DNA of 64,000 bases from Halioglobus sp. Its GTDB lineage: Bacteria > Pseudomonadota > Gammaproteobacteria > Pseudomonadales > Halieaceae. Shown here in pieces: positions 1-63,631 of the stretch (positions within the stretch are counted from its first letter, which is position 1; every line of letters starts with the position of its first letter). The translations under genes were made by a program, and so were the position numbers. The notes beneath the pieces were generated by a model that was not told the DNA's origin, searched no databases, and saw only the letters and a list, made by a program, of their open reading frames with translations. The DNA lies in NCBI GenBank assembly GCA_029246385.1, contig JAQWNG010000028.1:62001-126000 (forward strand), in the 5' to 3' direction.

Positions 1-103
1 GAGTCTCGTTGCGCTGCGTGATTTAGCGGCTAAGCAGGGGGAGCCATTATCTGTTAGTGGTAAACAGGAATGGTATGAGAACGTGATCAACCAGTATTTG
101 TAA
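1..103 (+). CDS. 3' end of an unidentified gene
   Basis: Reading from base 2 gives 33 codons, without an internal stop, ending at TAA 101-103. The C-terminal peptide ends in KQEWYENVINQYL. I do not recognise the family. It runs in the same direction as the sugar-catabolism operon and ends 26 bases before the next start, so it is probably the preceding gene of that operon. The true start lies outside the window. Confidence 0.55.
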   Translation, partial: SLVALRDLAAKQGEPLSVSGKQEWYENVINQYL

Positions 104-129
104 ATCACAAGCCGGTGTTGGAGGGGGCA

Positions 130-1287
130 ATGACTAGAATCAGGATGGGGATGATCGGTGGAGGGGAAGGTGCCTTTATCGGCGCAGTACATCGCATGGC
201 AGCGGCTATTGATGGCGATATAGAATTGGTCTGCGGAGCCTTCAGTTCAGACGCCGAACGTGGACGCCGCTCGGGCGCCGCTGTATATCTGCCAGAGGAT
301 CGTGTCTACGCTGATTATAAGACGATGATCGCTGCCGAGTCTATGCTTCCGGTAGCGCAAAGAATGCAGTTCGTCGCTATCGTCACGCCAAATGATCTAC
401 ATTTTCCTGTCGCAGAGGCTGCCCTGCAAGGCGGTTTTCACGTGCTGTGCGATAAGCCCGCCACGTTTAATTTGCAAGAGGCCTTAAAACTGCGTGACAT
501 TCTGACAGACACAGGCCTGCTCTACGGGTTATCACATACCTACACTGGTTATCCGTTGGTAAAGGAGGCACGTGCGCGCGTTGCTGCTGGTGAGTTAGGC
601 CGCGTGCGCAAGATTGTGGTTGAGTATCCGCAGGGCTGGCTAGCAGATCGTGAAGAAGATAAAGATAACAAGCAGGCCGCTTGGCGCCTCGATCCTGCCC
701 GCGCTGGGGTCAGCAGCTGTATGGGCGATATCGGCGTTCACGCTGCTAATTTGGCAGAATATGTCAGCGGCGTGCAAATTTCTGAAATTTGCTCTGATCT
801 GTCTGCATTTGTGCCTGGCCGGAAGTTAGACGATGATGGCGCGGTTCTATTGCGATTTGAGAATGGCGCACGGGGCGTGTTACACGCCAGCCAGATCAGT
901 GTTGGTGAAGAAAATGCGCTCAGCATTCGTGTCTATGGTGAGAAAGGGGGGCTGGAATGGACGCAGCAGCAACCCAATACGCTCTGGCTTAAATGGCCCG
1001 ACCGACCGACTGAGATGTTGCGAACAGGGGGGAGTTATTTGGGTGATCTTGCGACCGCCAATGCTCGCACTCCGATGGGGCACCCAGAGGGGTATTTGGA
1101 GGCTTTTGCAAATATCTACAGCGCGTTTGTTGGGCAGATTCGCGCACGGGAAGCGAGTCAGGAGCCAGATGCCCGTTCGGTCGACTGTCCCGGCATTGAA
1201 CAGGCAATTCGTGGCATGACTTTTATCGAACTGGCTGTGGCGGCAAGCGCCAGTAATATCAAATGGCATATATTTGAACAGTATTAA
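130..1287 (+). CDS. Gfo/Idh/MocA-family NAD(P)-dependent oxidoreductase
   Basis: This 385-aa protein opens with a Rossmann fold glycine-rich stretch ([13 protein letters not shown], about residues 6-18). It carries the family signature CDKPATFN around residue 120, the conserved Lys of the active-site EKP-like motif. The C-terminal half is the usual alpha/beta sugar-binding domain. Members oxidise or reduce sugars, inositols and 3-keto-sugars in the cytoplasm. ATG 130 was chosen over an upstream codon because a purine-rich GGAGGGGG precedes it. Downstream genes are two sugar isomerases, a transporter and a GMC dehydrogenase, so a sugar or keto-sugar substrate is likely. The exact substrate is unknown. 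Confidence 0.88.
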
Positions 1288-49305: not shown

Positions 49306-50478
49306 ATGAGTGTTTCTTTTACGCTGACACCTCAGACGGAGATATCCGCTGATGTAGCGATTGACTTGGCAAAAACACGTCAGCCACAGTATGGCCGCTA
49401 CCTTGACGAATTGGAGCCCGGTCAGGTGTTTGAACACCCGCGTGGCTTCACTTTTACACGGACTAATATGTTGGAATTTGCCCGCACCTTTATGCAGGCC
49501 AATCCGCTGTACCTCAACCGGCAGTATGCTCGCGATATAGGGTTTCCAGACCTGCTTGCCAGCCCACAGATGGTATTTAATGTCACTCTATCCCTAGGCG
49601 TGCAAAATGATTCAGAAAAAGCCATCGCCAACCTAGGCTACTATCAGGTTCAATTCCTAAGGCCGGTGTACGCGGGTGATACCCTGCGCGCATTTACTAA
49701 AGTATTGGAGCGGAAAGACCGTGGACCGGATAAGCCGGGCATCACACTGATTCGCACCGTTGGGGTGAATCAAGATGATGCTGTTGTACTCAAGTATGAC
49801 CGTAAGATTATGGTTGGGTGGCGTGGGAATCGGCTGCCCACGACACCTGCGCCAGAGATCAGCGTTGAATTCCCCTGTGATCAAGCTGCGTTGGTTGATC
49901 TGCCATTAACCGGTGCTAGAGTTGCACCCGGACTCACTGGGCCCAACACTTATTTTGAAGACTTCGCGCCCGGCGATATCATCGTTCATGCCAATGGACG
50001 CACTATCACAGAAGAACATATGGCATTGACCTATGCTGTTGGTAACAGTCATCCGCTGCATTTTGATCGCGTTTTCTCCGGCGCGTTATCTGGAAAGATG
50101 AGCGGAGAACCTATCGTTTATGGGGGGCTTGTATTTGCATGGCTAGAGGGATTAGCCAGTCGAGACGTTAGTGAACACGCAGTATGGGAATTGGGCTTTA
50201 CCGAAGGCTATCACACACAGCCTACTTTCGCAGGTGATACCGTCGCGGCCCTGTCCCGCATTCTTGCCGTAGAGGATGTCCCCGAATTGGAAGCGCATGG
50301 CCTGGTCACGCTTCAGTTGATTGGTGTGAAAAATATTTCCGCTGCACAGGCACTAAAAAAATACGGGGCAGAGCTGTTTTCTAAGGAAGATACAAAGCGC
50401 GCTCTCGGCAAAGAAAAGATTACTGATAAAATTTTTGAAATCGAGCGCCGACTACTAATTACGCGCCGCTCTAGCTGA
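49306..50478 (+). CDS. mch: Mesaconyl-C1-CoA hydratase (MaoC-like double hotdog)
   Basis: This 390-aa protein has two hotdog domains. The second has the hydratase-2-like stretch TYFEDFAPGDIIVHANGRTI and NSHPLHFDRVFSG, with the active-site pair near the His/Asp there. It would hydrate mesaconyl-C1-CoA to beta-methylmalyl-CoA, the substrate of the downstream lyase. It lies 11 bases from both mcd and ecm. Sequence alone cannot exclude another branched enoyl-CoA, but the operon makes the call strong. Confidence 0.85.
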   Translation: MSVSFTLTPQTEISADVAIDLAKTRQPQYGRYLDELEPGQVFEHPRGFTFTRTNMLEFARTFMQANPLYLNRQYARDIGFPDLLASPQMVFNVTLSLGVQNDSEKAIANLGYYQVQFLRPVYAGDTLRAFTKVLERKDRGPDKPGITLIRTVGVNQDDAVVLKYDRKIMVGWRGNRLPTTPAPEISVEFPCDQAALVDLPLTGARVAPGLTGPNTYFEDFAPGDIIVHANGRTITEEHMALTYAVGNSHPLHFDRVFSGALSGKMSGEPIVYGGLVFAWLEGLASRDVSEHAVWELGFTEGYHTQPTFAGDTVAALSRILAVEDVPELEAHGLVTLQLIGVKNISAAQALKKYGAELFSKEDTKRALGKEKITDKIFEIERRLLITRRSS

Positions 50479-50489
50479 GGACCGCTGCC

Positions 50490-52490
50490 GTGAGCCAGGA
50501 CACTGCAAAAAGAGACCGACCATGGTTAATGCGCACCTACTCGGGGCATTCGTCGGCGCAGGCTTCCAATCAGCTTTATCGCACGAACCTCAGTCGCGGA
50601 CAGACTGGACTGTCGGTGGCCTTTGATTTGCCAACTCAAACGGGTTACGACTCTGACCATCCATTGGCAAGAGGGGAAGTCGGAAAAGTGGGCGTGCCCA
50701 TTAATCATATCGGTGATATGGAAGCCCTATTTGATCAAATACCCCTAGATCAAATGAATACCTCAATGACAATCAATGCAACCGCGCCGTGGCTGCTCGC
50801 TCTGTATGTTGCAGTTGCCGAGCGTCAAGGGGTTGATCCTTCTACGTTACAGGGTACCACTCAAAATGATGTCCTCAAAGAATACCTGTCTCGCGGCACT
50901 TACATTTACCCACCCGCCCCCTCTGTACGTCTCACGACTGACCTAATCGCCTACACCGTAGCCAATATTCCGAAGTGGAATCCAACTAACGTCTGCAGCT
51001 ATCACTTGCAGGAGGCAGGAGCAACGCCCACGCAAGAGTTGGCTTATGCGTTATCTACGGCAATCGCTATTCTGGATGCAGTAAAGGCTTCAGGACAAGT
51101 CTCCCAGGATTGCTTCCATGATGTCTTTGGCCGCATTTCTTTCTTCGTTAATGCTGGCATTCGTTTTGTTGAAGAAACCTGTAAATTGCGAGCGTTCGGC
51201 CGCATGTGGGACGAGTTAGCGCAACAGCGTTATGGGATCGAGAATCCAAAACAGCGCCGCTTTCGCTATGGTGTTCAGGTGAACTCGCTGGGTCTGACAG
51301 AATCCCAACCGGAGAATAATGTTCAGCGTATTGTTCTGGAAATGCTTGCGGTGACGCTGTCCAAGAGTTCACGGGCAAGAGCCATACAATTGCCAGCCTG
51401 GAACGAGGCCTTAGGGCTACCTCGCCCTTGGGACCAACAGTGGGCCCTGCGAATGCAACAGGTGCTCGCGCTGGAAACCGACCTACTCGAATACGGGGAT
51501 TTATTCGAGGGCTCTCATGTAGTCGAACGTAAAGTGCAGGAGTTAATTTCGGGTGCTCGAGAAGAGATGTCGCGGGTGGAGTCGCAAGGCGGCCTCGTGG
51601 CCTGTATTGAGACAGGATATGTAAAGAGCGAGTTAGTCCGGAGTCACACCCTTCGCATGCGCAATATAGAAAGTGGTGAGCTACAAATCATAGGCGTGAA
51701 CTGCTTTCAAGAGACCGCTGAATCACCGCTCACGGCTGGCGAGGAATCTGGCATTATGAAAGTGGATAAGAAAGCTGAAGAGGAGCAGATCGCTTCGCTG
51801 CGATCTTTCCGCTTGAATCGTGAGCACAGTAGAGTAGAACAAGCATTGGAACTGTTGCGCACAGCAGCAACTAATGGCAACAATATCATGCCGCCGTCAA
51901 TAGAGTGCGCGCGTGCTGGTGTAACTACGGGAGAATGGAGTGAAGTATTGCGGGAGGTCTTCGGTGAATATCGTGCACCCACGGGTATTGATATTACACC
52001 GTTAAGTGAGAGTGAATCTGAGGCTCTTGTTATAGTGCGCGAGCGCGTGCGCAATACTGGCAAGGAGTTAGGGCGCCCGCTCAGATTATTAATTGGCAAA
52101 CCCGGGCTTGATGGGCACAGTAATGGCGCCGAGCAGATCGCGGTCAAGGCGCGTGATGCGGGATTTGAAATTGTCTATGAGGGCATTCGTCTCACACCGG
52201 CGCAAATCGCCCGTGCCGCGCAGGAAGAAGGTGTACATTTGATTGGGCTTTCTATTTTATCCGGAAGCCATATGGAGTTAATCGACGATATTTTTATCGA
52301 GCTCAAGAACATTGGTGCAGCAGATATTCCTGTCGTCATCGGTGGTATCATTCCCGAAGAAGACGCAGAACATTTATTGCAGAACGGTCTAAAAGCAGTC
52401 TTCACGCCGAAGGACATGGATATGAATAGTATAATGGATGCCATGGTGACCATTATTCGTCAGGCTCATGGCCTAGAGACCTCGACCTAA
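50490..52490 (+). CDS. ecm: Ethylmalonyl-CoA mutase (B12-dependent)
   Basis: This 666-aa protein combines the acyl-CoA mutase barrel with a C-terminal cobalamin domain: Asp541-Gly-His543-x-x-Gly546 (DGHSNG), then GLSILSGSH and VVIGGIIPEEDAE. The substrate region reads AFDLPTQTGYDSDHPLARGE and WNPTNVCSYHLQEAGATP, as in Rhodobacter Ecm/MeaA. Methylmalonyl-CoA mutase at 56452-58608 instead has [14 protein letters not shown]. It converts (2R)-ethylmalonyl-CoA to (2S)-methylsuccinyl-CoA. The start is GTG. It is followed eight bases later by its own MeaB-type gene. Confidence 0.9.
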   Translation: MSQDTAKRDRPWLMRTYSGHSSAQASNQLYRTNLSRGQTGLSVAFDLPTQTGYDSDHPLARGEVGKVGVPINHIGDMEALFDQIPLDQMNTSMTINATAPWLLALYVAVAERQGVDPSTLQGTTQNDVLKEYLSRGTYIYPPAPSVRLTTDLIAYTVANIPKWNPTNVCSYHLQEAGATPTQELAYALSTAIAILDAVKASGQVSQDCFHDVFGRISFFVNAGIRFVEETCKLRAFGRMWDELAQQRYGIENPKQRRFRYGVQVNSLGLTESQPENNVQRIVLEMLAVTLSKSSRARAIQLPAWNEALGLPRPWDQQWALRMQQVLALETDLLEYGDLFEGSHVVERKVQELISGAREEMSRVESQGGLVACIETGYVKSELVRSHTLRMRNIESGELQIIGVNCFQETAESPLTAGEESGIMKVDKKAEEEQIASLRSFRLNREHSRVEQALELLRTAATNGNNIMPPSIECARAGVTTGEWSEVLREVFGEYRAPTGIDITPLSESESEALVIVRERVRNTGKELGRPLRLLIGKPGLDGHSNGAEQIAVKARDAGFEIVYEGIRLTPAQIARAAQEEGVHLIGLSILSGSHMELIDDIFIELKNIGAADIPVVIGGIIPEEDAEHLLQNGLKAVFTPKDMDMNSIMDAMVTIIRQAHGLETST

Positions 52491-52498
52491 TTGCCCGC

Positions 52499-53476
52499 AT
52501 GCAACAAGCTAACTTTAAAACCTCTGTGGATCTCGCTGCTGCTGTTAGCGAGGGAGATAGAGCAGCATTGGCCGCAGCCTTAAACTTGTTGGATGACCAG
52601 CGGGCATCTGTTCGCAGTAAAGCCGCAGAGCTGCTCGCCCAGCTGCAGCTCACCCAAGAGTTTCCGGATAAACACCTTGTTGGCATTACAGGTCCACCGG
52701 GGGCGGGGAAATCGACACTGTGTGCTGCCTTAATTTCAGTGTGGCGAAAGCGAGGCTTACGCGTGGGGGTACTAGCAGTTGATCCCTCTAGTCCAATTAG
52801 TGGTGGCGCATTCCTTGGCGACAGACTGCGAATGCAAACAAGCTATGAAGATGATGGCGTATTTGTTCGGTCATTATCTAGCCGAGGCCAGTTCGGTGGT
52901 CTAAGTGCTGAGGTCTGGCCTATGAGCGTTGTCATGCTGGCAGGCTTCGATATTGTTCTGATTGAGACAGTAGGCGTTGGTCAGCGGGAAGCGGATATCG
53001 CCCGTCTGTGCGATACCACTTGCTACGTTGCGCAGCCTGGTTCTGGGGACAGTGTACAATTTTTGAAAGCCGGCATTCTAGAAGTGCCGCACATTCTGGT
53101 CGTTAATAAAGAAGATATGGGGGATGTCGCTCGTCGCACGTTGGCAGAGTTGAGAGCCGCACTTAACCGAGAGCATCCTGATGGCGACTGGGAAGTGCCG
53201 GTGTTACCCACGAGTGCAACCAAAAATGCAGGAGTTGAAACACTAGCAGACGTTATTCATCAACACCACAATACGCTCAAGGCACAACAAAAGTTGGTGC
53301 CGCGGCGCCGTCGCTATCAGACCTATTGGATACATAAGCGCTTGCAGGAAGAGTTCGGTAGCTTTGGCATCGAACAACTCGGCGGAGAACAGCTGCTACT
53401 GACCCAGCTCGAAGAAAACGAAGTGGACCTATTACAGCACTATGAGTCACTTCGAGTTCACTTAAATAAAAGTTAA
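52499..53476 (+). CDS. meaB: MeaB/ArgK-type G3E GTPase, mutase chaperone (Ecm-associated)
   Basis: This 325-aa P-loop GTPase has Walker A GITGPPGAGKSTLCAALI, SPISGGAFLGDRLRMQ (switch region), VLIETVGVGQREADIA and the base motif VVNKEDMGD (NKxD). MeaB proteins gate cofactor loading and protect B12 mutases. It is diverged from the second MeaB at 54665-55624: the segment after Walker B reads LCDTTCYVAQPGSGDSVQFL rather than the classical MVLMLPGGGDELQG. Its position directly behind ecm suggests it serves Ecm specifically. Confidence 0.86.
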   Translation: MQQANFKTSVDLAAAVSEGDRAALAAALNLLDDQRASVRSKAAELLAQLQLTQEFPDKHLVGITGPPGAGKSTLCAALISVWRKRGLRVGVLAVDPSSPISGGAFLGDRLRMQTSYEDDGVFVRSLSSRGQFGGLSAEVWPMSVVMLAGFDIVLIETVGVGQREADIARLCDTTCYVAQPGSGDSVQFLKAGILEVPHILVVNKEDMGDVARRTLAELRAALNREHPDGDWEVPVLPTSATKNAGVETLADVIHQHHNTLKAQQKLVPRRRRYQTYWIHKRLQEEFGSFGIEQLGGEQLLLTQLEENEVDLLQHYESLRVHLNKS

Positions 53477-53515
53477 TTCGGTACTTAATATTAAATAACC
53501 CTATTGGAGTTAACC

Positions 53516-54565
53516 ATGCGTAGTCCCCGTGATTTTTTTCGTCCTCTGGCGCTCGGTGCGCCGCCTCCAATGCGAGACCTACCTGTTCGGCCCTCGCGCA
53601 TGATTCATTTTTTTGATCCCAGCAATCCCCGAATGGTGGAAAAGGCCCCAAGCATTGCAAAAAAAGTTGATATTCTCCTAGGCAATCTTGAGGACGCTAT
53701 CGCCACCGAAAATAAAGAATCTGCCCGTGATGGCTTTATCAGCATAGCGCGTGACAATAACTTTGGGGATACTCAGCTGTGGACGCGTATTAATAGCCTC
53801 GATAGCCCTTGGTTCCTCGACGATATCACCCGCATCGTGACCGAGGTGGGTGACAAAGTCGACGTTATCATGCTGCCAAAAATCCAGGGAGCTTGGGATA
53901 TCCACTTCGCCGATCAATTGCTTGCACAGCTCGAAGCGAGGGCTGGACTGCAAAAACCTATCCAACTTCACTGTTTGCTAGAAACCGCCCTCGGTGTAGC
54001 GAACGTTGAAGAAATCGCCAATGCCAGCCCACGAATTCAGGGTATGAGCCTAGGACCTGCCGACCTAGCTGCGTCGCGGCGCATGAAAACAACTCGAATA
54101 GGCGGGGGTCACCCCGGCTATCTCGTGCGTGATGATCCCGATCCGGAAAATGCACAAGCGGCTCGCCTTACTCATCAGCAAGATCTATGGCATTATACTC
54201 TGGGCCGCATGGTGGATGCTTGCGTCAGCGTGGGGGCCCTTCCTTTTTACGGTCCTTTCGGTGCGATCGACGACCCACTGGCCTGTGAGGACCAATTCCG
54301 CAACGCCTTTCTAATGGGGTGCGTTGGAGCTTGGTCTCTGCACCCCAGCCAGATAGAAATCGCAAGGAATGTATTCAGCCCACCTGCTAATGAGGTGGCC
54401 TGGGCCAAACGCGTACTGGAAGCATTACCCGATGGCAGTGGCGCAGTGATGGTAGACGGCAAGATGCAAGACGACGCTTCCTGGAAGCAGTGCAAAGTGA
54501 TGGTCGATCTAGCACGTTTGATTGCAGACAAGGATCCGGATCTGAAGAAGTCGTACGGCTTCTAA
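53516..54565 (+). CDS. mcl1: L-malyl-CoA/beta-methylmalyl-CoA lyase
   Basis: This 349-aa HpcH/HpaI-type lyase has metal ligands Glu156 ([10 protein letters not shown]) and Asp183 ([11 protein letters not shown]), plus [18 protein letters not shown] and [18 protein letters not shown]. It closely recalls the Chloroflexus aurantiacus malyl-CoA lyase from the N-terminal [20 protein letters not shown] onward. It cleaves beta-methylmalyl-CoA to glyoxylate plus propionyl-CoA, and can condense glyoxylate with acetyl-CoA. ATG 53516 follows a GGAG; an upstream TTG is less likely. It is last in the operon. Confidence 0.9.
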
Positions 54566-54664: not shown

Positions 54665-55624
54665 CTAGAACTGCTCCGTTAGTTGCCGTACAGCAGCAAA
54701 CGCTGTGATTTCTTGGCGCTGCACTGCCTCTTCAAGCGCCGGGAGCAGCGCCTTTACCTTTGCGCTGCGAGACAGCTTCAGTAACAACATTTCATTAAGT
54801 AGCTGATGCATCCAGTCTAAGTTTTGTTGAATCCGCTTGCTGGAAAACGCCTCAAGCTCCAAAGACTTGAAATAGTACTCCAGAATCATGTCCCACACGG
54901 TATCGATGTTGACTCGTGTCAATGCGGAGCATGTGAGCGCTCTGGGCGTCCAGAAACTGTTATGATGTAGCAGACTCATCGCGCTTTCGTATTGACGCTG
55001 CGTTATGGTTGCCAAAGTTTCACTGGGGCCGTCTGCTTTATTGATCACAAGCGCGTCTGCCAGCTCCATAATGCCTTTCTTGATCCCTTGCAACTCATCA
55101 CCGCCACCGGGTAGCATTAGCACCATAAAGAAGTCTACCATTGCTGACACCTGATACTCTGACTGCCCTACGCCAACGGTCTCGACTAGAACAACATCGT
55201 AGCCAGCCGCTTCACACAACAGCATAGTTTCCCGCGTTTTTTGTGCAACGCCGCCCAGTGTACCGGACGCAGGTGTGGGCCGAATGAAGGCTTCCTTCTT
55301 CCTCGATAAGTCTTCCATGCGAGTCTTGTCTCCGAGGATAGATCCTCCCGCAATAGGTGAACTTGGATCAACTGCGAGCACGGCAACGCGCTTCCCCTGC
55401 CTTATCAAATACAGACCAAAGGCTTCAATAAAAGTGGATTTTCCCACGCCAGGGACACCGCTAATCCCGATACGAATACTCTTGCCACTGTGTGGCAGCA
55501 CTTGTTCCAGAATGGCTTGAGCCTGCTCCCGATGCGAGTCTAGCGAGCTCTCTACCAAGGTTATCGCCTTAGCCAAACCACGGCGGTCACCGCGCAGGAG
55601 GTCTTGTAGATTAAATTTCGTCAT
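54665..55624 (-). CDS. meaB: MeaB-type methylmalonyl-CoA mutase-associated GTPase (classical)
   Basis: This 319-aa G3E GTPase has Walker A GISGVPGVGKSTFIEAFG, SSPIAGGSILGDKTRMEDLS, VLVETVGVGQSEYQV and ALVINKADGPSE. The C-terminal helical dimerisation part is present. It matches classical MeaB/MMAA more closely than the paralogue at 52499. It is downstream of the methylmalonyl-CoA mutase gene on the same strand but separated by about 830 bases holding a decayed gene, so it may have its own promoter. Confidence 0.92.
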   Translation of the reverse strand: MTKFNLQDLLRGDRRGLAKAITLVESSLDSHREQAQAILEQVLPHSGKSIRIGISGVPGVGKSTFIEAFGLYLIRQGKRVAVLAVDPSSPIAGGSILGDKTRMEDLSRKKEAFIRPTPASGTLGGVAQKTRETMLLCEAAGYDVVLVETVGVGQSEYQVSAMVDFFMVLMLPGGGDELQGIKKGIMELADALVINKADGPSETLATITQRQYESAMSLLHHNSFWTPRALTCSALTRVNIDTVWDMILEYYFKSLELEAFSSKRIQQNLDWMHQLLNEMLLLKLSRSAKVKALLPALEEAVQRQEITAFAAVRQLTEQF

Positions 55625-56451: not shown

Positions 56452-58608
56452 TCAACCTTGCGCATTCTTTACGGCCTCAAGAACCTCGCGGGCACACTGG
56501 GGTATCGGAGTTCCCGGCCCAAAAATACACTTTACACCGGAATTGTAAAGAAAGTCATAATCCTGTTTGGGAATAACGCCACCGGCAATAACCACAATCT
56601 CACTAGCGCCCTGCTTTCTAAGTTCCTCTACCAACAATGGCACCAGCGTCTTATGACCTGCCGCAAGAGAAGAGGCGCCAACAACGTGTACGTCGTTTTC
56701 AATCGCCTGACGTGCCACTTCCTCGGGTGTTGAGAACATCGGCGACAAATCGATGTCGAATCCAACATCTGCAAAGGCTGTTGCAACGACCTTCGCACCG
56801 CGATCGTGGCCATCTTGACCCATTTTACATACCAACATACGCGGTCGACGGCCGTAGTGCTCAACGAAAGCATCGATATCTTTGCTGATACCTTGCCAAT
56901 TTTCATCTTGCTTAAACGCTGCACCATAGACTCCTGACACGGTCTGAGAGTTTGCCTTAAAGCGACCGAATTCACGTTCCATAGCGAAAGAGATCTCTCC
57001 TACCGTGGCTCGCCTTCGAGTGGCCTCGATAGCTAGCGCCAAAAGATTGCCTTGTCCACTGACCGCGCATTGATAAATCTCCTCTAGTATAGCCTCAACC
57101 GCACTATCATCACGACTGTTGCGAATTATGTCCAATCGAGCCAGTTGAGAATCACGGACGGCGTCGTTGTCAATGTCGAGGATCTCAATGTCGTCTTGTT
57201 CATCAAGTTTATACTTGTTGACTCCAACGATAACATCTTCACCGCGGTCAATGCGCGCCTGCTTTTTGGCGGCAGCTTCTTCAATGCGCATTTTGGGCAT
57301 ACCTGTTTCAATGGCCTTGGCCATACCGCCTGCAGCCTCAACTTCCTCGATCAGTTCCCATGCCTTGTCCGCAATATCTTGCGTCAGGCTTTCCATCATG
57401 TAGGAGCCACCCCAAGGGTCGATCACATTGGTTATGCCGGTTTCTTCCTGAATAATCAGCTGCGTGTTTCGGGCAATGCGAGAGGAGAAATCAGTAGGTA
57501 AAGCGATCGCCTCATCCAGCGCGTTCGTGTGCAATGATTGTGTTCCACCGAACACAGCCGCCATCGCCTCAATCGTCGTGCGCACGACATTGTTATAAGG
57601 ATCTTGTTCCGTAAGAGACCAACCCGACGTTTGGCTATGAGTGCGCAGCATAGAACTTTTAGGATTCTCAGGGTTGAACTCAGAAACAATTCGCGTCCAG
57701 AGTAGGCGTGCTGCACGCATTTTAGCAATCTCCATATAGAAATTCATGCCGATGCCCCAGAAAAAAGAAAGCCGCGGCGCGAATTGATCGATGCCGAGTC
57801 CTGCTGCGATCGCTGTGCGGATGTACTCTTTACCGTCTGCAAGTGTGTAAGCGAGTTCTAATGCAGCGTTCGCGCCCGCCTCTTGGATATGGTACCCAGA
57901 GATAGAAATAGTGTTAAAACGCGGCATATTGGTCGAGCAGAAAGCAATGATATCGCCGATGATTTTCATGCTGGGCACCGGCGGATAAATATATGTATTA
58001 CGCACCATAAACTCTTTAAGAATATCGTTTTGTATAGTGCCTGCCAACTCCGCCTGCTCTACACCCTGCTCCTCTGCAGCTACGATATAACCCGCGAGAA
58101 TTGGCAGTACAGCACCATTCATAGTCATAGACACCGAGACATTGTTCAATGGAATGCCGTCGAACAGAACTTTCATATCTTCAACAGAGTCGATGGCCAC
58201 ACCGGCCTTACCAACATCCCCTGCAACACGGGGATGATCGGAGTCATAGCCTCTATGCGTAGCGAGGTCAAAGGCAACCGAAATACCTTGGCCGCCAGCG
58301 GCTAATGCTTTGCGATAGAAGGCGTTGGACGCCTCAGCGGTCGAGAAGCCTGCATATTGCCGAATGGTCCATGGCCTGCCGGCATACATCGTCGCCTGCG
58401 GGCCGCGCAAATACGGTGACATGCCCGGCATCGTATCGATATACTCAAGTGCCTCCATGTCAGCTGCTGTGTAAAGCGGCTTAACAGCGATATCTTCTGC
58501 CGTGTGCCAAGTCAGGTCTTCAGGAGTCTTACCTTTTGATTGCTTGGTCGCAAGCACATTCCAATTTTCAGGTGTGGAGTCAGCTTTATTGTAAATGTCT
58601 TCACTCAT
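56452..58608 (-). CDS. scpA: Methylmalonyl-CoA mutase, single-chain
   Basis: This 718-aa protein has the mutase barrel ([54 protein letters not shown]). The C-terminal B12 domain has Asp599-Gly-His601-Asp-Arg-Gly604, [12 protein letters not shown] and VVIAGGVIP. It converts (R)-methylmalonyl-CoA to succinyl-CoA, finishing propionyl-CoA assimilation. It follows the epimerase gene by ten bases in the order carboxyltransferase, biotin carboxylase, epimerase, mutase. A 12-base palindrome GCGAATATTCGC lies at 56426-56437, just past its stop. Confidence 0.95.
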
Positions 58609-58618
58609 ATGCTACGCC

Positions 58619-59029
58619 TCAATGCCCCTCGGCCGGTTGACTAATTTCGATCAGTACTCCGTCACAGCTCTTGGGATGTAGAAAAATAACCCTGGCGCCA
58701 TGCGCTCCAGGCGTCGGCGCATCCCCGAGAAACTGATAGCCCTTCTCGCGCAGTCTCGCCACGTCTGTATCGATATCGTCAGAGCGAAAACACAGATGGT
58801 GCAAACCACCGCCCTTTTTCTCCAAATACGTCTTTACCGGACCCTCGTCATTAAGGGGGTGCACCAACTCGATACTTGTGGGAGGCAAAGGCAAAAAAGC
58901 GGCGGTCGTTTTCGCTTCCAACACGTCTTCTTGGCCGCCCAGTGGGAGGCCAAAATCGCTAACAAAACGTTGTATGGCTTTTTCCAGATCAGGTACGGCA
59001 ATGGCGATATGATCTAAGGCTGTAATCAT
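58619..59029 (-). CDS. mce: Methylmalonyl-CoA (ethylmalonyl-CoA) epimerase
   Basis: This 136-aa vicinal-oxygen-chelate protein begins ALDHIAIAVPDLEKAI with the first metal His at residue 7. It has KKGGGLHHLCFRSDDID for the second His region and a C-terminal GVLIEISQ with the metal Glu. It interconverts (S)- and (R)-methylmalonyl-CoA. In organisms with the ethylmalonyl-CoA pathway the same enzyme also epimerises ethylmalonyl-CoA, so it could link both blocks here. It lies 13 bases after the biotin carboxylase gene. Confidence 0.93.
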   Translation of the reverse strand: MITALDHIAIAVPDLEKAIQRFVSDFGLPLGGQEDVLEAKTTAAFLPLPPTSIELVHPLNDEGPVKTYLEKKGGGLHHLCFRSDDIDTDVARLREKGYQFLGDAPTPGAHGARVIFLHPKSCDGVLIEISQPAEGH

Positions 59030-59042
59030 CTGTGATTCTCCT

Positions 59043-61859
59043 TTAAAGGTGTTGCAGGAAATTATTGGTCACGGCCATACGCTTTTCCGCGACATCCTCG
59101 GCAGATACTTGGACGGCAATTTCGTCGGGAATAATCTTAAAAATGGGCTGTCCCTTGCTAATTATACTGCCATCAGTTTCAACGAGCACTTTTGCAATAG
59201 TGCCAGAAAATGGCGCATAGACCTTATTAAACATCTTCATGACTTCGACAATAAACAAGGGGTCTCCAGCACTGAAGTGATCGCCCTCGCTGATATATAC
59301 GTCATGTGCCGGCGTTTCACGCGAGTAAAACATTCCACCACTTTCTGAAAGGATTTCATCTGAACTAGCCACTGGCGGCGGGACTAGTACTTTTGCCATT
59401 CTCGTCTGCAGTGTTTCCTCGGCGAGCCGCTCCGGAATATGGATACTAAGGTCAAGGTTGACCGTAAGATCATAAAAACGCGTTGCCTCTGCGATACTAG
59501 GCAGCAAGGCAATAATATCGGTGCCAGCCTGAAATCCCTCATGGGAGCCTCGCACGCTGTGCCAGAGGTCAGCTTCTAGGCCATTGGGCGGCTCATTACT
59601 GTCGAGAATTGAGCATAGTTCCAACCAATCTTCAGAGCCGATACGTGCGGCGAGTTCAGCATAAAATGCCAGCGCGTTCTGCAAAATTATATTGTCATGA
59701 TCCCATATCATTACCGCGGCGGGAGGGCTGTCCCCACAGACATAGTCCATATTAAGAAAATGATAAGTTTCGCTGAGCAATTCGAGAGGGTTTTCGTTCC
59801 AACAGATTCTGCCCTCAATCACCGAATAACAATCCCGGTTGATGCTGAGCCAGCCACTGAGCATGTGAGGCTCTTGAAGCAGCTCCTTCAACGGTCGCAG
59901 CAGCAATGACTCTTTGCGCTGCAGCGCCTCCGCAGCAGCAGTGCGAGCGTCCCCTTCAACGCCCTCTAGGGCTGCGCGGCAAATATGCCTGTACGCATAA
60001 TCTATATCTAGATCATTAGCGCGCTCTTTAAGCTCGCCGACCGCAGTCAAATAAGGCACGATGAAGCGCGTCGTTGGTCGGGCGTTTATATTCTGACCGA
60101 TAAACCAATTCACTAAGCCGTAATGAAATTCAAGATTAGTAGCCAGGTCCCTACCCCGCATCCGAGTCTGACGAATTGTTTCTGCCATTCTTTCGTATGT
60201 CTCAAGTCGGGTGTCCCCCACCGTCAGCAACAGGGCGATATTTGAATCATAAGCACCTGCAAGCGTGTACTTCATGAACACATCCGTATCTGGATTATGC
60301 AAGCTAATGCCCTGATCATCACGAATCTCACCCTCAATGGCGTCGCTCCAGGATTCAATGACGCCGCCAGCGTGAGGCTGCAAAGACTGATTAGTTGCAT
60401 TGAGCCTTGCCTCAACACTGTCATTCATTCTTGTGATGCGCTCAGGCCTAGGCAGCTTTTTCGCGTGGGCCGCGATTAAAACCATAGCTTCGACTAGCGA
60501 CTCGACAACAAAATAGTCCTCTGCATCATCCGGATTGCTGAATTTGAGCGAATAACACAATTCCGTCACGCGATGCTCAACTTGAATTCGAGTATTCATT
60601 TCCATAAAAAAATGTCTGTCGCGGTCTACTATGCATTCAAAGGTTGACACAGAGTCAAGCCCGACAGCCTCTCCGAACACTTCCGCCTCTTTCTCCATTG
60701 CTGTCAACGTTGCTAGGTCCTGCTTCAATACTTGCGTCTCTTGCGCATGACCGCTGACCTGTGACTGTTCAATGGCCCGTTTTAATGACTCAACGGTAAC
60801 CGAGACTTCGAGTAGTTTCTGCTCATGCATCTGTAATGAGCAATCACGACCACCCATGGACATACACCACTGGCCATTACCGATCACCTGTATTTCTTGG
60901 TGGCGTGTGGTCTCAATGTTTAACTCAACTAACACATTTTTGTTGTCACCAACCCCGGTAGTCTTAACCTCATTAAGAATCTCTCTGACCAACTCTGCGG
61001 TGCGAGCGGATTCACCGACACCGAGAATGCGCTGCCCCTTACCGCCGCCACCACCGATTGCCTTCAATCGCACACGGTTGCTTGGATAATCGGCCGTCAT
61101 TTTCACAACAGCCTCTGTAAGGGTTGCGCACAGCTCATCGACCGTATAGAGGTCAATGCCGCTTTTATACGAGGCGCCAAGCACAAGATCGGCCTTATCC
61201 TCCAAGCTGACTGAAGTATCGGACAGGATGGCGGCGTCGACCGCGAGCTTGTGTTCCGCGACAAGAGTTTGCAAGGCATTCACGTCGGCATGTTTTTTGA
61301 GAAGCGTCAAAGCAGTGCCATTATCGATGCCCGGCGTAACGGACACTCCGCATTTCAGCGCAGTTCGTTTGGCCTCATCTTTAAGCCCAGCGTCGTGCAC
61401 CGTCCGCGAGCAGGGACCGATGAACGTCAGCCCCGCGGCTTCCATGGCTGCCACCATTGCTTCGTCTTCGGCCATAAAGCCATAACCTGCAAAGATAGCG
61501 TTGTAGTTATTGTCGCGAGCAATATTGATGATCTGCTTAATGCGCTGCTCTCTTTCCTCTTTGTCGACACCACTATAATCAGGCACGCGATGAATTCGGT
61601 CCGGATGAGTCAGCGAGCGCAACTCAGGCGCAATAGCATTCCGATAGACAATAGAGTCCTTCTCTGACAACAATATGCCGAAATGTGTTATGCCCATTTC
61701 AGCAAAAACATCCATCGCTTCTTTGCGAATAGGGCCGCGGCAAATAATAAGAGGTTGGAGATCAGTGCAGCTAAATTGTTTCGCCCATGCAGAGGGCATA
61801 TCCCCCAACCTGCGATCACGGTGGATTAGCGGGTTACTTAGGTAAAATTCGTTAGACAC
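59043..61859 (-). CDS. Long acyl-CoA carboxylase alpha subunit (biotin carboxylase plus biotinyl domain)
   Basis: This 938-aa protein has a biotin-carboxylase N-terminal fold (LIICRGPIRKEAMDVFAEMG), ATP-grasp loop LKAIGGGGGKGQRILG and catalytic EMNTRIQVEHRVTELC. A long middle region of about 350 residues follows. The biotinyl domain has Lys875 in EVMKMFNKV, then about 63 further residues. Ordinary PccA is about 660-670 aa and has AM(K)M near the end, so this is a divergent long form with inserts. With the carboxyltransferase upstream it likely carboxylates propionyl-CoA. Acetyl- or butyryl-CoA are possible alternatives. Confidence 0.85.
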   Translation of the reverse strand: MSNEFYLSNPLIHRDRRLGDMPSAWAKQFSCTDLQPLIICRGPIRKEAMDVFAEMGITHFGILLSEKDSIVYRNAIAPELRSLTHPDRIHRVPDYSGVDKEEREQRIKQIINIARDNNYNAIFAGYGFMAEDEAMVAAMEAAGLTFIGPCSRTVHDAGLKDEAKRTALKCGVSVTPGIDNGTALTLLKKHADVNALQTLVAEHKLAVDAAILSDTSVSLEDKADLVLGASYKSGIDLYTVDELCATLTEAVVKMTADYPSNRVRLKAIGGGGGKGQRILGVGESARTAELVREILNEVKTTGVGDNKNVLVELNIETTRHQEIQVIGNGQWCMSMGGRDCSLQMHEQKLLEVSVTVESLKRAIEQSQVSGHAQETQVLKQDLATLTAMEKEAEVFGEAVGLDSVSTFECIVDRDRHFFMEMNTRIQVEHRVTELCYSLKFSNPDDAEDYFVVESLVEAMVLIAAHAKKLPRPERITRMNDSVEARLNATNQSLQPHAGGVIESWSDAIEGEIRDDQGISLHNPDTDVFMKYTLAGAYDSNIALLLTVGDTRLETYERMAETIRQTRMRGRDLATNLEFHYGLVNWFIGQNINARPTTRFIVPYLTAVGELKERANDLDIDYAYRHICRAALEGVEGDARTAAAEALQRKESLLLRPLKELLQEPHMLSGWLSINRDCYSVIEGRICWNENPLELLSETYHFLNMDYVCGDSPPAAVMIWDHDNIILQNALAFYAELAARIGSEDWLELCSILDSNEPPNGLEADLWHSVRGSHEGFQAGTDIIALLPSIAEATRFYDLTVNLDLSIHIPERLAEETLQTRMAKVLVPPPVASSDEILSESGGMFYSRETPAHDVYISEGDHFSAGDPLFIVEVMKMFNKVYAPFSGTIAKVLVETDGSIISKGQPIFKIIPDEIAVQVSAEDVAEKRMAVTNNFLQHL

Positions 61860-61897: not shown

Positions 61898-63631
61898 TTA
61901 GTGAAATTCGCGCTGCACATCCTGCAGCGGCTGCGCCTGATAGCGACGTAGATAAAACGCCATGTTCTCGGCCAATACTTGCCGCAAATCTGATGGCATC
62001 ACAATTTGGGAGATCGACCCGAGGCTCAAAGCCTCGTTCGGATTCATCAACTCTCTGGTATAACGTTCCGCTAACTGCGCTTCTTCAGATTTGACCCAGT
62101 CATCGACCAACTGCTGCGCCGCTTGCTTGGCCTGCTCTTCAGACAGGCCGGCTTTGATTTGAGCTTGGGTTTCCTTATCTATTTTACCTGAGATTGACCC
62201 ACGCATTTTTCGCAGTTCATCTTTATAGACATACTCCACACCTGCCGGACCCATCACCGCCACGCGCGTAGTTGGCAGGGCTATGACAAAATCAGCACCT
62301 ACAGGGAAACTATTAAATGCGGCATAGGCGCCGCCAAAGGCATTGCGCACCAGTACCAAAAATCGCGGTGTGCGCAAGTCGACAATGGCATCAAGAAGAG
62401 CCCGACCGGCTTGGATTATGCCGCCACTTTCCTGATCTTTGCCGGGCAAAAAGCCAGTGGTGTCTTCAAGAAAAATAACCGGAATATTGTAAAGATTGCA
62501 AAAACGAATAAAACGCGCATTCTTGTACGCTGCGTCAATATCGATTTGTCCAGATGAAACTGCAGAGTTGTTCGCGACAAAACCGATGACATTCCCGCCC
62601 ATGCGTCCCAATGCAGTAACAGTGTTTCGTGCCCGGTCTGGCTGAACCTCAAGGAAGTCTCCGTGATCACACAGTTGTTGAATTAAAATTGTAATATCGA
62701 TGGGCGTGTTAAAGCCAGTGGGAGAGTTGAAGGCTTTCTTCAACAAAATCTCAATATCCCAGGTCTTACGATCGATCGGATCGGAGCTCGCCTGATGCGG
62801 CGCAAGCTCACCGTTGAAGCTAGGCAAGTAGTTCAACAAGGATCGTACTTTGCGCAGAGCTGCGACTTCGTCTTTGACCACAAAATCTGTAACGCCGGTT
62901 TTGCTGTGAACACCTGGGCCTCCCAATTCATCCGGCGTAACATCTTCACCCAACACCGATTTGACAACTCCAGGCCCCGTCAGACCGAAGAAGGTTTCGT
63001 TAGGTTGAATCAGAAAGCTTCCCTGACGTGGAAGGTATGAGCCACCGCCAGCGTTGAATCCAAACATGCACATGATACTGGGCACGATACCGCTGATGCG
63101 CCTTAGCGCAGCAAACGCCTCTGCATATCCATCGAGTCCGCCCACACCGGCCGGAATAAATGCGCCCGCACTGTCATTGATTCCAACAACAGGAATTCGC
63201 TGTTTTGCTGCCAGCTGGAATAAGCGCGCTAGTTTAGCGCCGTTGGTCGCGTCCATTGACCCTGCCCGGACAGTAAAATCATGGCCATAAAGCGCAACAT
63301 CGCGGCCATTAACTTTGATGATAGCGGTCACCAGTGACGCACCATCGAGATTGGGTCCCCAGTTTTGGTAAAGCACGATTGGCGGCTCGTCACTGAGATA
63401 GCGAATGCGCTCCCAGATCGTCATGCGATTCTTCTGGTGCTGGCGTTGTATATTCTTGACACCCGCGATCTGGCGCGGGCGCTGCTGCAGCTCCCAACCG
63501 GACTGAAGCGCGTCTTCGTAAGGTCCCGGTTCGGATGCCAACTGGCCAGGAACGCCGAAATTTTTCTCCTCACGCTTCGCAAATGGATTGTCCAGAGAGG
63601 CGGTCGGAGCGTTGCTATTTTTAGTTGTCAT
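61898..63631 (-). CDS. Acyl-CoA carboxylase beta subunit (carboxyltransferase)
   Basis: This 577-aa crotonase-fold carboxyltransferase has both halves. The N-half contains [20 protein letters not shown] and [17 protein letters not shown]. The C-half contains [41 protein letters not shown] and [21 protein letters not shown]. It transfers carboxylate from biotin to the acyl-CoA. Within the propionyl-CoA operon it is best read as the PccB partner of the long alpha subunit. [20 protein letters not shown] is typical of this family. It is the first gene of the operon. Confidence 0.87.

Follow-up and report, generated by a model that had tools for sequence, protein, structure and literature searches.

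What connects the two subunits of an acyl-CoA carboxylase when the domain that usually does so is not recognizable in the alpha subunit? The question is raised by a gene of Halioglobus sp. (Halieaceae) found in a window of 64,000 nucleotides, which is the whole stretch of DNA analyzed here (assembly GCA_029246385.1, contig JAQWNG010000028.1, positions 62,001 to 126,000). The gene lies at 59043..61859 on the minus strand, starts with GTG and encodes an alpha subunit of 938 residues in which a biotin carboxylase (BC) domain is followed by a helical domain and a biotinyl (BCCP) domain. In known alpha subunits, the place between BC and BCCP is taken by the BT domain, in which a beta barrel surrounds a long helix and a hook touches the beta subunit (PMC4673880, PMC10148081). 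Judging from predicted models and profile comparisons, an all-helical domain very probably stands in place of BT in the window protein. The explanation that we hold to be probable is that of a propionyl-CoA carboxylase (PCC) with a replacement docking domain, of which the docking and the shape of the holoenzyme are the parts that we infer.

The helical domain covers approximately residues 608-825 (59385..60038, minus strand). Residues 586-832, folded alone with AlphaFold from 64 sequences, gave a model (pLDDT 94.4) with eleven helices of at least four residues, one beta hairpin and one two-residue bridge. In the model of the full-length protein (58 full-length sequences; pLDDT 89.2, pTM 0.88), the only strands of at least three residues between residues 571 and 834 are those of the hairpin at 678-687. 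The inputs of the two runs overlap without being identical, and both models share one all-helical layout, while the BT domain of geranyl-CoA carboxylase (GCC) is described as a long helix within an eight-stranded barrel (PMC4673880). Profiles of canonical BT domains were built from 14 MCC-like and 7 other alpha subunits (19 usable open reading frames, ORFs, from 20 stretches, and two genes of the source genome itself). These two profiles find one another with a probability of 92.8% (E 3.9e-7). The profile built from the 64 middle regions matches neither of them nor the pooled set (probability 0.1-0.3%, E 0.23-0.42), and a PDB search with it yields nothing significant (best E 0.32). Between BC and BCCP, neither the predicted models nor the profile comparison reveals a beta barrel enclosing a long helix. 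The preliminary description had left room for the extra length being an ordinary BT linker domain shared with well-studied carboxylases of the same size, and this is not what the predicted fold and the profiles, negative alongside a positive control, indicate.

Foldseek gave no confident match for the model of the helical middle region (best E 0.63 against the PDB and 0.39 against viral models), and no carboxylase appears among the best 50 of 126 Foldseek matches or among the best 50 VIA matches. The best VIA score (Z 3.6) is shared by 8qv2_F over 75 residues and 2vjh_B over 125, and matches this weak are no proof of a new fold. Phycobiliproteins account for 8 of the best 50 VIA rows, with Z values of 2.4-3.6 that are too weak to support kinship. 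The central domain of eukaryotic ACC was considered as a source, and no ACC chain was found among the listed Foldseek and VIA matches, with no further dedicated test. With E values up to 0.01, the 64 middle regions match no Pfam family, and a single member matches an NCBIfam model (E 0.0022), which was taken as chance.

Compared with the 667-residue chain 6ybp_G, the alpha subunit has 271 additional residues, in agreement with the earlier estimate of about 270 more than PccA or AccC-BCCP fusions. By phmmer blocks, these are split over five places: 44 at the N-terminus, 64 at the junction of the BC N-domain and ATP-grasp, 42 in the BC core, 92 between BC and the biotinyl domain, and 29 at the C-terminus. 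The long helical region that had been noted before the biotinyl domain is predicted to be helical as described; its net gain is no more than about 92 residues, and it replaces BT more than it is inserted. The N-terminal extension covers approximately residues 1-28 (61776..61859, minus strand), given that the BC fold begins at residues 27-33 in most VIA rows, and in an alignment the GTG start lines up with that of 4 of 13 homologues (L020, L034, L037, L039). The C-terminal tail, residues 913-938 (59046..59123, minus strand), forms a helix at 920-937 in the full model. Among the best 60 of 89 solved relatives, most are BC proteins of about 450 residues, alpha subunits of 600-730 residues or carboxylases of at least 1090 residues, and no chain among them combines BC and BCCP within 900-1000 residues. 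The protein is unusually long, as first thought, when set against textbook PccA; it is not so within its own family. The family signature DDQGIxxxNPDT (residues 514-525; 60285..60320, minus strand) is present in 37 of 40 loci, and a DNA pattern made for it found at least 119 stretches among species genomes. The signature lies in an ORF in 118 of the 119 listed stretches, 77 of these ORFs being complete, with a median of 954 residues and 73 of them within 900-1030. Apparent N-terminal fusions in frames above 1100 residues (L085, L101, L135, L142) were discarded, their additional residues being encoded over the beta gene in a different reading frame, and L053 and L060 are split frames. One Polyangiaceae alpha (L137:5155-6285) has 376 extra C-terminal residues with no Pfam match.

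The remaining domains are those of a biotin-dependent carboxylase, although a divergent one, as had been said of the protein: the three Pfam BC domain models reach only 27.5 to 61.8 bits. Pfam recognizes a partial Biotin_carb_N, an ATP-grasp domain, a Biotin_carb_C below cut-off and a biotinyl domain, and no NCBIfam model exceeds its cut-off among the best 25 of 26 matching models. No carboxyltransferase (CT) family is found among the domain matches of the 938-residue protein, CT being a separate gene. The BC fold covers residues 29-607 (60039..61775, minus strand) and matches E. coli BC 3g8c by VIA with Z 40.2 and an rmsd of 2.7 over 432 residues. Residue numbers and roles are what we take them to be in E. 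coli BC, mapped through the AccC protein of the same genome (numbering +2). On this basis, 13 catalytic positions (K116, K159, H209, Q233, K238, E276, E288, N290, R292, Q294, V295, E296 and R338) are invariant in all 58 long-form alpha sequences, the set on which the invariance counts are made. The ATP-grasp glycine loop GGGGGKGQRI (residues 269-278; 61026..61055, minus strand) had been singled out as changed, and so it is. The odd residue is Gln276, invariant in the 58 sequences and replaced by Met in the AccC, MCC-like and GCC-like proteins of the same genome, whereas Lys274 is ordinary, given that Lys is also found in the MCC-like alpha. At QMHEQK (residues 343-348; 60816..60833, minus strand), Glu346 stands at the ATP-site His of canonical QRRHQK and is Glu in 57 sequences and Asp in one; the two arginines of that motif are Met in 58/58 and mostly His (53) in the family. 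The changes at Glu346 and Gln276 are read as hallmarks of the family rather than of decay. Between the BC N-domain and ATP-grasp, an insert of about 64 net residues lies at 179-262 (61074..61325, minus strand). The biotinyl domain covers approximately residues 833-912 (59124..59363, minus strand; PF00364 at 851-909, E 3.7e-14; model strands within 835-911), and the biotinyl lysine is Lys875 in EVMKMFN (59235..59237, minus strand), M874-K875-M876 being invariant and, as previously counted, followed by 63 residues.

The partner of this protein is encoded at 61898..63631 on the minus strand, a CT beta subunit of 577 residues (PF01039, E 5.4e-106) that resembles PCC beta 1vrg (305 bits) more than MCC beta 3u9r (131 bits). 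The pair thus has what defines a two-subunit acyl-CoA carboxylase: a BC fold with its catalytic residues, apart from the His-to-Glu change, an MKM lysine in the same chain and a separate CT beta. Immediately downstream of alpha, on the same strand, are genes for a methylmalonyl-CoA epimerase (58619..59029; TIGR03081, 143.8 bits, cut-off 114.95) and a methylmalonyl-CoA mutase (56452..58608; NF006944, 1283.8 bits, cut-off 876). From the conserved residues and this gene context, the pair is in all likelihood an active acyl-CoA carboxylase using propionyl-CoA. In the proposed mechanism, beta and alpha would form an ATP- and biotin-dependent PCC whose product would pass to the epimerase and mutase encoded next to it. 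The BC domain would charge the biotin of Lys875 using bicarbonate and ATP, and the charged biotin would swing to beta, where propionyl-CoA would be carboxylated. The helical domain would dock alpha to beta, probably aided by the xNPF tail at the N-terminus of beta; docking in this manner would give the holoenzyme a different arrangement.

Of the 119 scan loci, 97 include 400 bp or more upstream of alpha. Beta lies directly upstream in 88 of these 97, with gaps of -1 to 156 bp, and in two further loci (L041, L053) it is next to an alpha whose frame is split. According to a guideline in PMC4673880, PCC beta subunits are without an extended N-terminal helix; the window beta has an N-terminal extension that bears LDNPF at residues 13-17 (63581..63595, minus strand). 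An N-terminal xNPF or xNPL tail is found by a strict pattern in 80 of 87 beta ORFs with an intact start. Of the seven misses, five have a looser xNPF or xNPL, one (L063) has a start too late to judge, and one (L036) is without the tail, so that strict and looser readings give 85 of 87. This last beta, of 519 residues, is the only one lacking the tail, and it is paired with an alpha relative of 740 residues, 38% identical, which is without the helical domain (L036:3547-10152, genome G053); its neighbors include a mutase and a 905-residue ORF that partly matches MeaB. The 740-residue form was found in one genome only among those searched, so the link between tail and domain rests on this single control. 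The position of the domain, its fast divergence and the paired tail of beta suggest that it is an alpha-beta docking module, a role that we hold to be slightly more likely than not. Architecture was one of two roles first proposed for the extra residues, and it is made more plausible by the location of the domain at the place of the BT contact and by the xNPF tail.

Alternatively, the helical domain may be mainly regulatory or ligand-binding, with the contact between alpha and beta made elsewhere, by the beta tail, the BC inserts or the C-terminal helix. Its few invariant positions (K649, R655, H665, W719, D722, H773) are scattered through a variable domain, as would be expected of a binding site, and L036, which is without the domain, has a paired beta with the shared QREF C-terminus. 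However, the domain evolves fast (12 of 218 positions invariant against 130 of 579 in BC), as is said of BT domains (PMC4673880). Pairwise distances of alpha and beta correlate with r 0.90 over 40 loci, and those of the helical domain follow beta (r 0.89) slightly more closely than those of BC (r 0.85), which is weak evidence given that all share one phylogeny, uncorrected for in these values. A mainly regulatory or ligand-binding role is unlikely, though it deserves to be taken seriously. For the docking role, it weighs on the negative side that the role is deduced from position and from one natural control, L036, which keeps the gene pair without the domain. Counting against the proposed enzyme as a whole, 7 of the 97 loci have no family beta directly upstream (L048, L065, L077, L112, L116, L146, L149). 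Six of these long alphas (L048, L065, L112, L116, L146, L149) come from two SAR324, one Leptospiraceae and three other bins.

The main substrate could also be other than propionyl-CoA, for instance butyryl-CoA feeding a nearby mutase of the ethylmalonyl-CoA type. The acyl pocket of this enzyme class lies in beta. Determinants of acyl specificity should be sought there; for specificity as a role of the extra residues of alpha, the second one first proposed, there is no support. In the window beta, Ala437 aligns with Asp407 of 6ybp (Ile in the 6ybq variant), and GGAYA, with Ala at this position, is found in 121 of 127 beta ORFs or fragments, the other six having missed the pattern. A second mutase-like protein of 666 residues, below the methylmalonyl-CoA mutase cut-off, is encoded at 50490-52490. 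Both observations would suit another substrate, but the immediate downstream genes are an epimerase and a mutase above their NCBIfam cut-offs, and the source genome yielded no second PCC-like alpha/beta pair, which makes this alternative rather improbable. The four BC genes of that genome are the long alpha, an MCC-like, a GCC-like and a stand-alone AccC-type of 448 residues. Since the other three are of these kinds, the window pair is the natural candidate for the PCC, being the only alpha/beta pair outside the MCC-like and GCC-like ones and an immediate neighbor of epimerase and mutase. The MCC-like beta gives 872 bits to MCC beta 3u9r, with an HMG-CoA lyase gene adjoining, and the GCC-like beta gives 626 bits to GCC beta 5ikl.

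Other observations count against propionyl-CoA as the substrate, besides Ala in place of Asp. The MCC-like beta (L169:6714-8447) also gives 858 bits to 9tps, a chain named propionyl-CoA carboxylase beta, which leaves the MCC-like name uncertain. Of the seven CT matches in the source genome, which include two short ones, the full-size genes on C22 and C42 have no BC gene on their contigs and could use any alpha. Whether the long form tracks with mutase operons, as had been wondered, has a mixed answer. A mutase lies on the same stretch as alpha in 14 of 15 larger stretches, picked for diversity among related genomes with a match to alpha, the fifteenth stopping at a contig end, and a mutase-like ORF is found downstream in 20 of the 34 listed scan loci with at least 3.5 kb of downstream sequence; the other 14 show none. 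Separately, the match to 9tps suggests that the name of that chain, or the usual PCC and MCC naming, needs a check.

Two Geobacteraceae loci have the order alpha, thymidylate-kinase-like gene (PF02223; L061:1494-2192 and L091:2665-3300), mutase and epimerase. This order fits GSU3299-3302, where GSU3299 is listed as a carboxyl transferase domain protein (PMC2825233) and GSU3301 as a second putative thymidylate kinase (PMC2700814). A 2026 study proposes that GSU3299/3300 carboxylate propionyl-CoA, and in it a pathway gene set including GSU3302 scores higher on propionate (PMC13274346). GSU3300 probably belongs to the family of the long alpha, a likeness judged from gene order. Counting against a PCC are two other Geobacter loci (L079, L159) without a gene between alpha and mutase, the different carboxyltransferase route for propionate proposed in G. 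bemidjiensis (PMC2996986) and the methylcitrate route proposed in G. metallireducens (PMC13274346, PMC2700814). In the open-access PMC literature, no paper was found that describes an alpha subunit with a helical domain replacing BT.

It is highly improbable that the middle region is an ordinary BT, diverged past recognition or mispredicted: BT sequences are poorly conserved (PMC4673880) and the two canonical BT domains of the source genome fail to align as single sequences, but canonical BT profiles match each other and not the middle region, no carboxylase is among its listed Foldseek matches, and where a BT barrel needs many strands both AlphaFold runs give a hairpin and a two-residue bridge. 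To the debit of a replacement, some VIA alignments to complete PCC and MCC chains have ranges that extend beyond BC into the middle (for example 3n6r_G 33..910, 8zux_A 16..716, given as ranges only) and a global alignment pairs one middle helix with the BT helix, so that a remnant of BT may still be present.

With these points weighed, the proposed PCC with a helical domain in the BT position can be set beside known systems. It is like the alpha6beta6 PCC (3n6r, 6ybp, 7ybu) in carrying BC and BCCP in alpha, with a separate PCC-like CT beta and conserved BC catalytic residues, the window pair moreover adjoining epimerase and mutase. It is unlike it in the predicted all-helical domain for the BT barrel, the BC inserts and the extended C-terminus of alpha, and in the N-terminal xNPF tail and the Ala at the acyl-pocket position of beta. 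The two-subunit layout of BC-BCCP and CT is shared with MCC and GCC (3u9r/3u9s, 5ikl), whereas the window beta is PCC-like and its genome has other pairs that are MCC-like and GCC-like. Acyl-CoA carboxylases with AccE are said to miss BT and to replace it by other means (PMC3199775); theirs is a separate small subunit, while here a domain of about 218 residues lies inside alpha. The gene order of L061 and L091 also fits Gmet_3248-3249, which like GSU3299-GSU3300 is a proposed PCC (PMC13274346) and probably of the family described here. Unlike the single-chain long-chain acyl-CoA carboxylase (4rcn), BC, BCCP and CT are not in one chain here.

The long form is widely distributed. Full-length alpha is present in 42 of 57 related genomes, the source genome counted, with pieces at contig ends in two more (G003, G032) and the 740-residue short form in G053. 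A search with the middle-region profile gave matches in 114 of 341 genomes sampled from the order; of 398 sampled from the phylum, only the source genome matched. When the short form served as query, 2 of the 321 genomes sampled from the class matched, one of them the source genome. The pattern scan reached Halieaceae and relatives, Geobacter and relatives, Myxococcales, SAR324, Leptospiraceae, bacterium HR30, one Acidobacteriota bin and others, its counts being of loci and not of species, with some genomes appearing twice (e.g., L027 and L054). Relatives at 45-81% identity occur in Desulfuromonadia, Myxococcota, SAR324, Leptospirales and one Acidobacteriota bin. In a tree made with FastTree only, from 58 long forms and the short form (a long branch), 25 of 29 labelled gammaproteobacteria fall in one starred set. 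This is placed next to (support 84, unstarred) a starred set with 10 of 10 Desulfuromonadia and 5 of 7 Myxococcia, and Leptospiria and SAR324 are together in a third set. No relative was found in viral contigs. Among plasmids, 1008 records gave matches; identity stayed under 60% throughout, and no single place in any record covered 80% of the query.

Further along the window, the mutase-associated GTPase MeaB is encoded at 54665..55624 on the minus strand (NF006958, 467.9 bits, cut-off 329). A divergent cluster at 49306-54565 contains a RipB-like hydratase (390 residues), the second mutase-like gene, a second MeaB and a CitE/malyl-CoA-lyase-like gene, and looks like part of an ethylmalonyl-CoA pathway. 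The source genome has two mutases, both inside the window.

It is tentatively put forward, as a possibility still short of even, that this is a third type of holoenzyme among acyl-CoA carboxylases, in which the hook-and-barrel contact of BT would be lost and an all-helical domain of a fold unseen in the PDB, held by the xNPF tail of beta, would organize a differently arranged complex serving as the PCC of Halieaceae, Geobacter relatives and others. On the predicted models, the window pair is a variant of the two-subunit acyl-CoA carboxylase with BT replaced, in a form common to many marine, iron-reducing and other bacteria, which may assemble unlike the textbook enzyme. If true, gene naming would be corrected for a protein that reaches no NCBIfam cut-off among the best 25 of 26 models and whose middle domain has no Pfam model, and a second route to carboxylase engineering would be opened. 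In PCC, MCC and GCC, BT is regarded as the joint of the two subunits. A family that is widespread and genetically consistent, and that seems to solve the same task with another domain, would mean that this joint is swappable.

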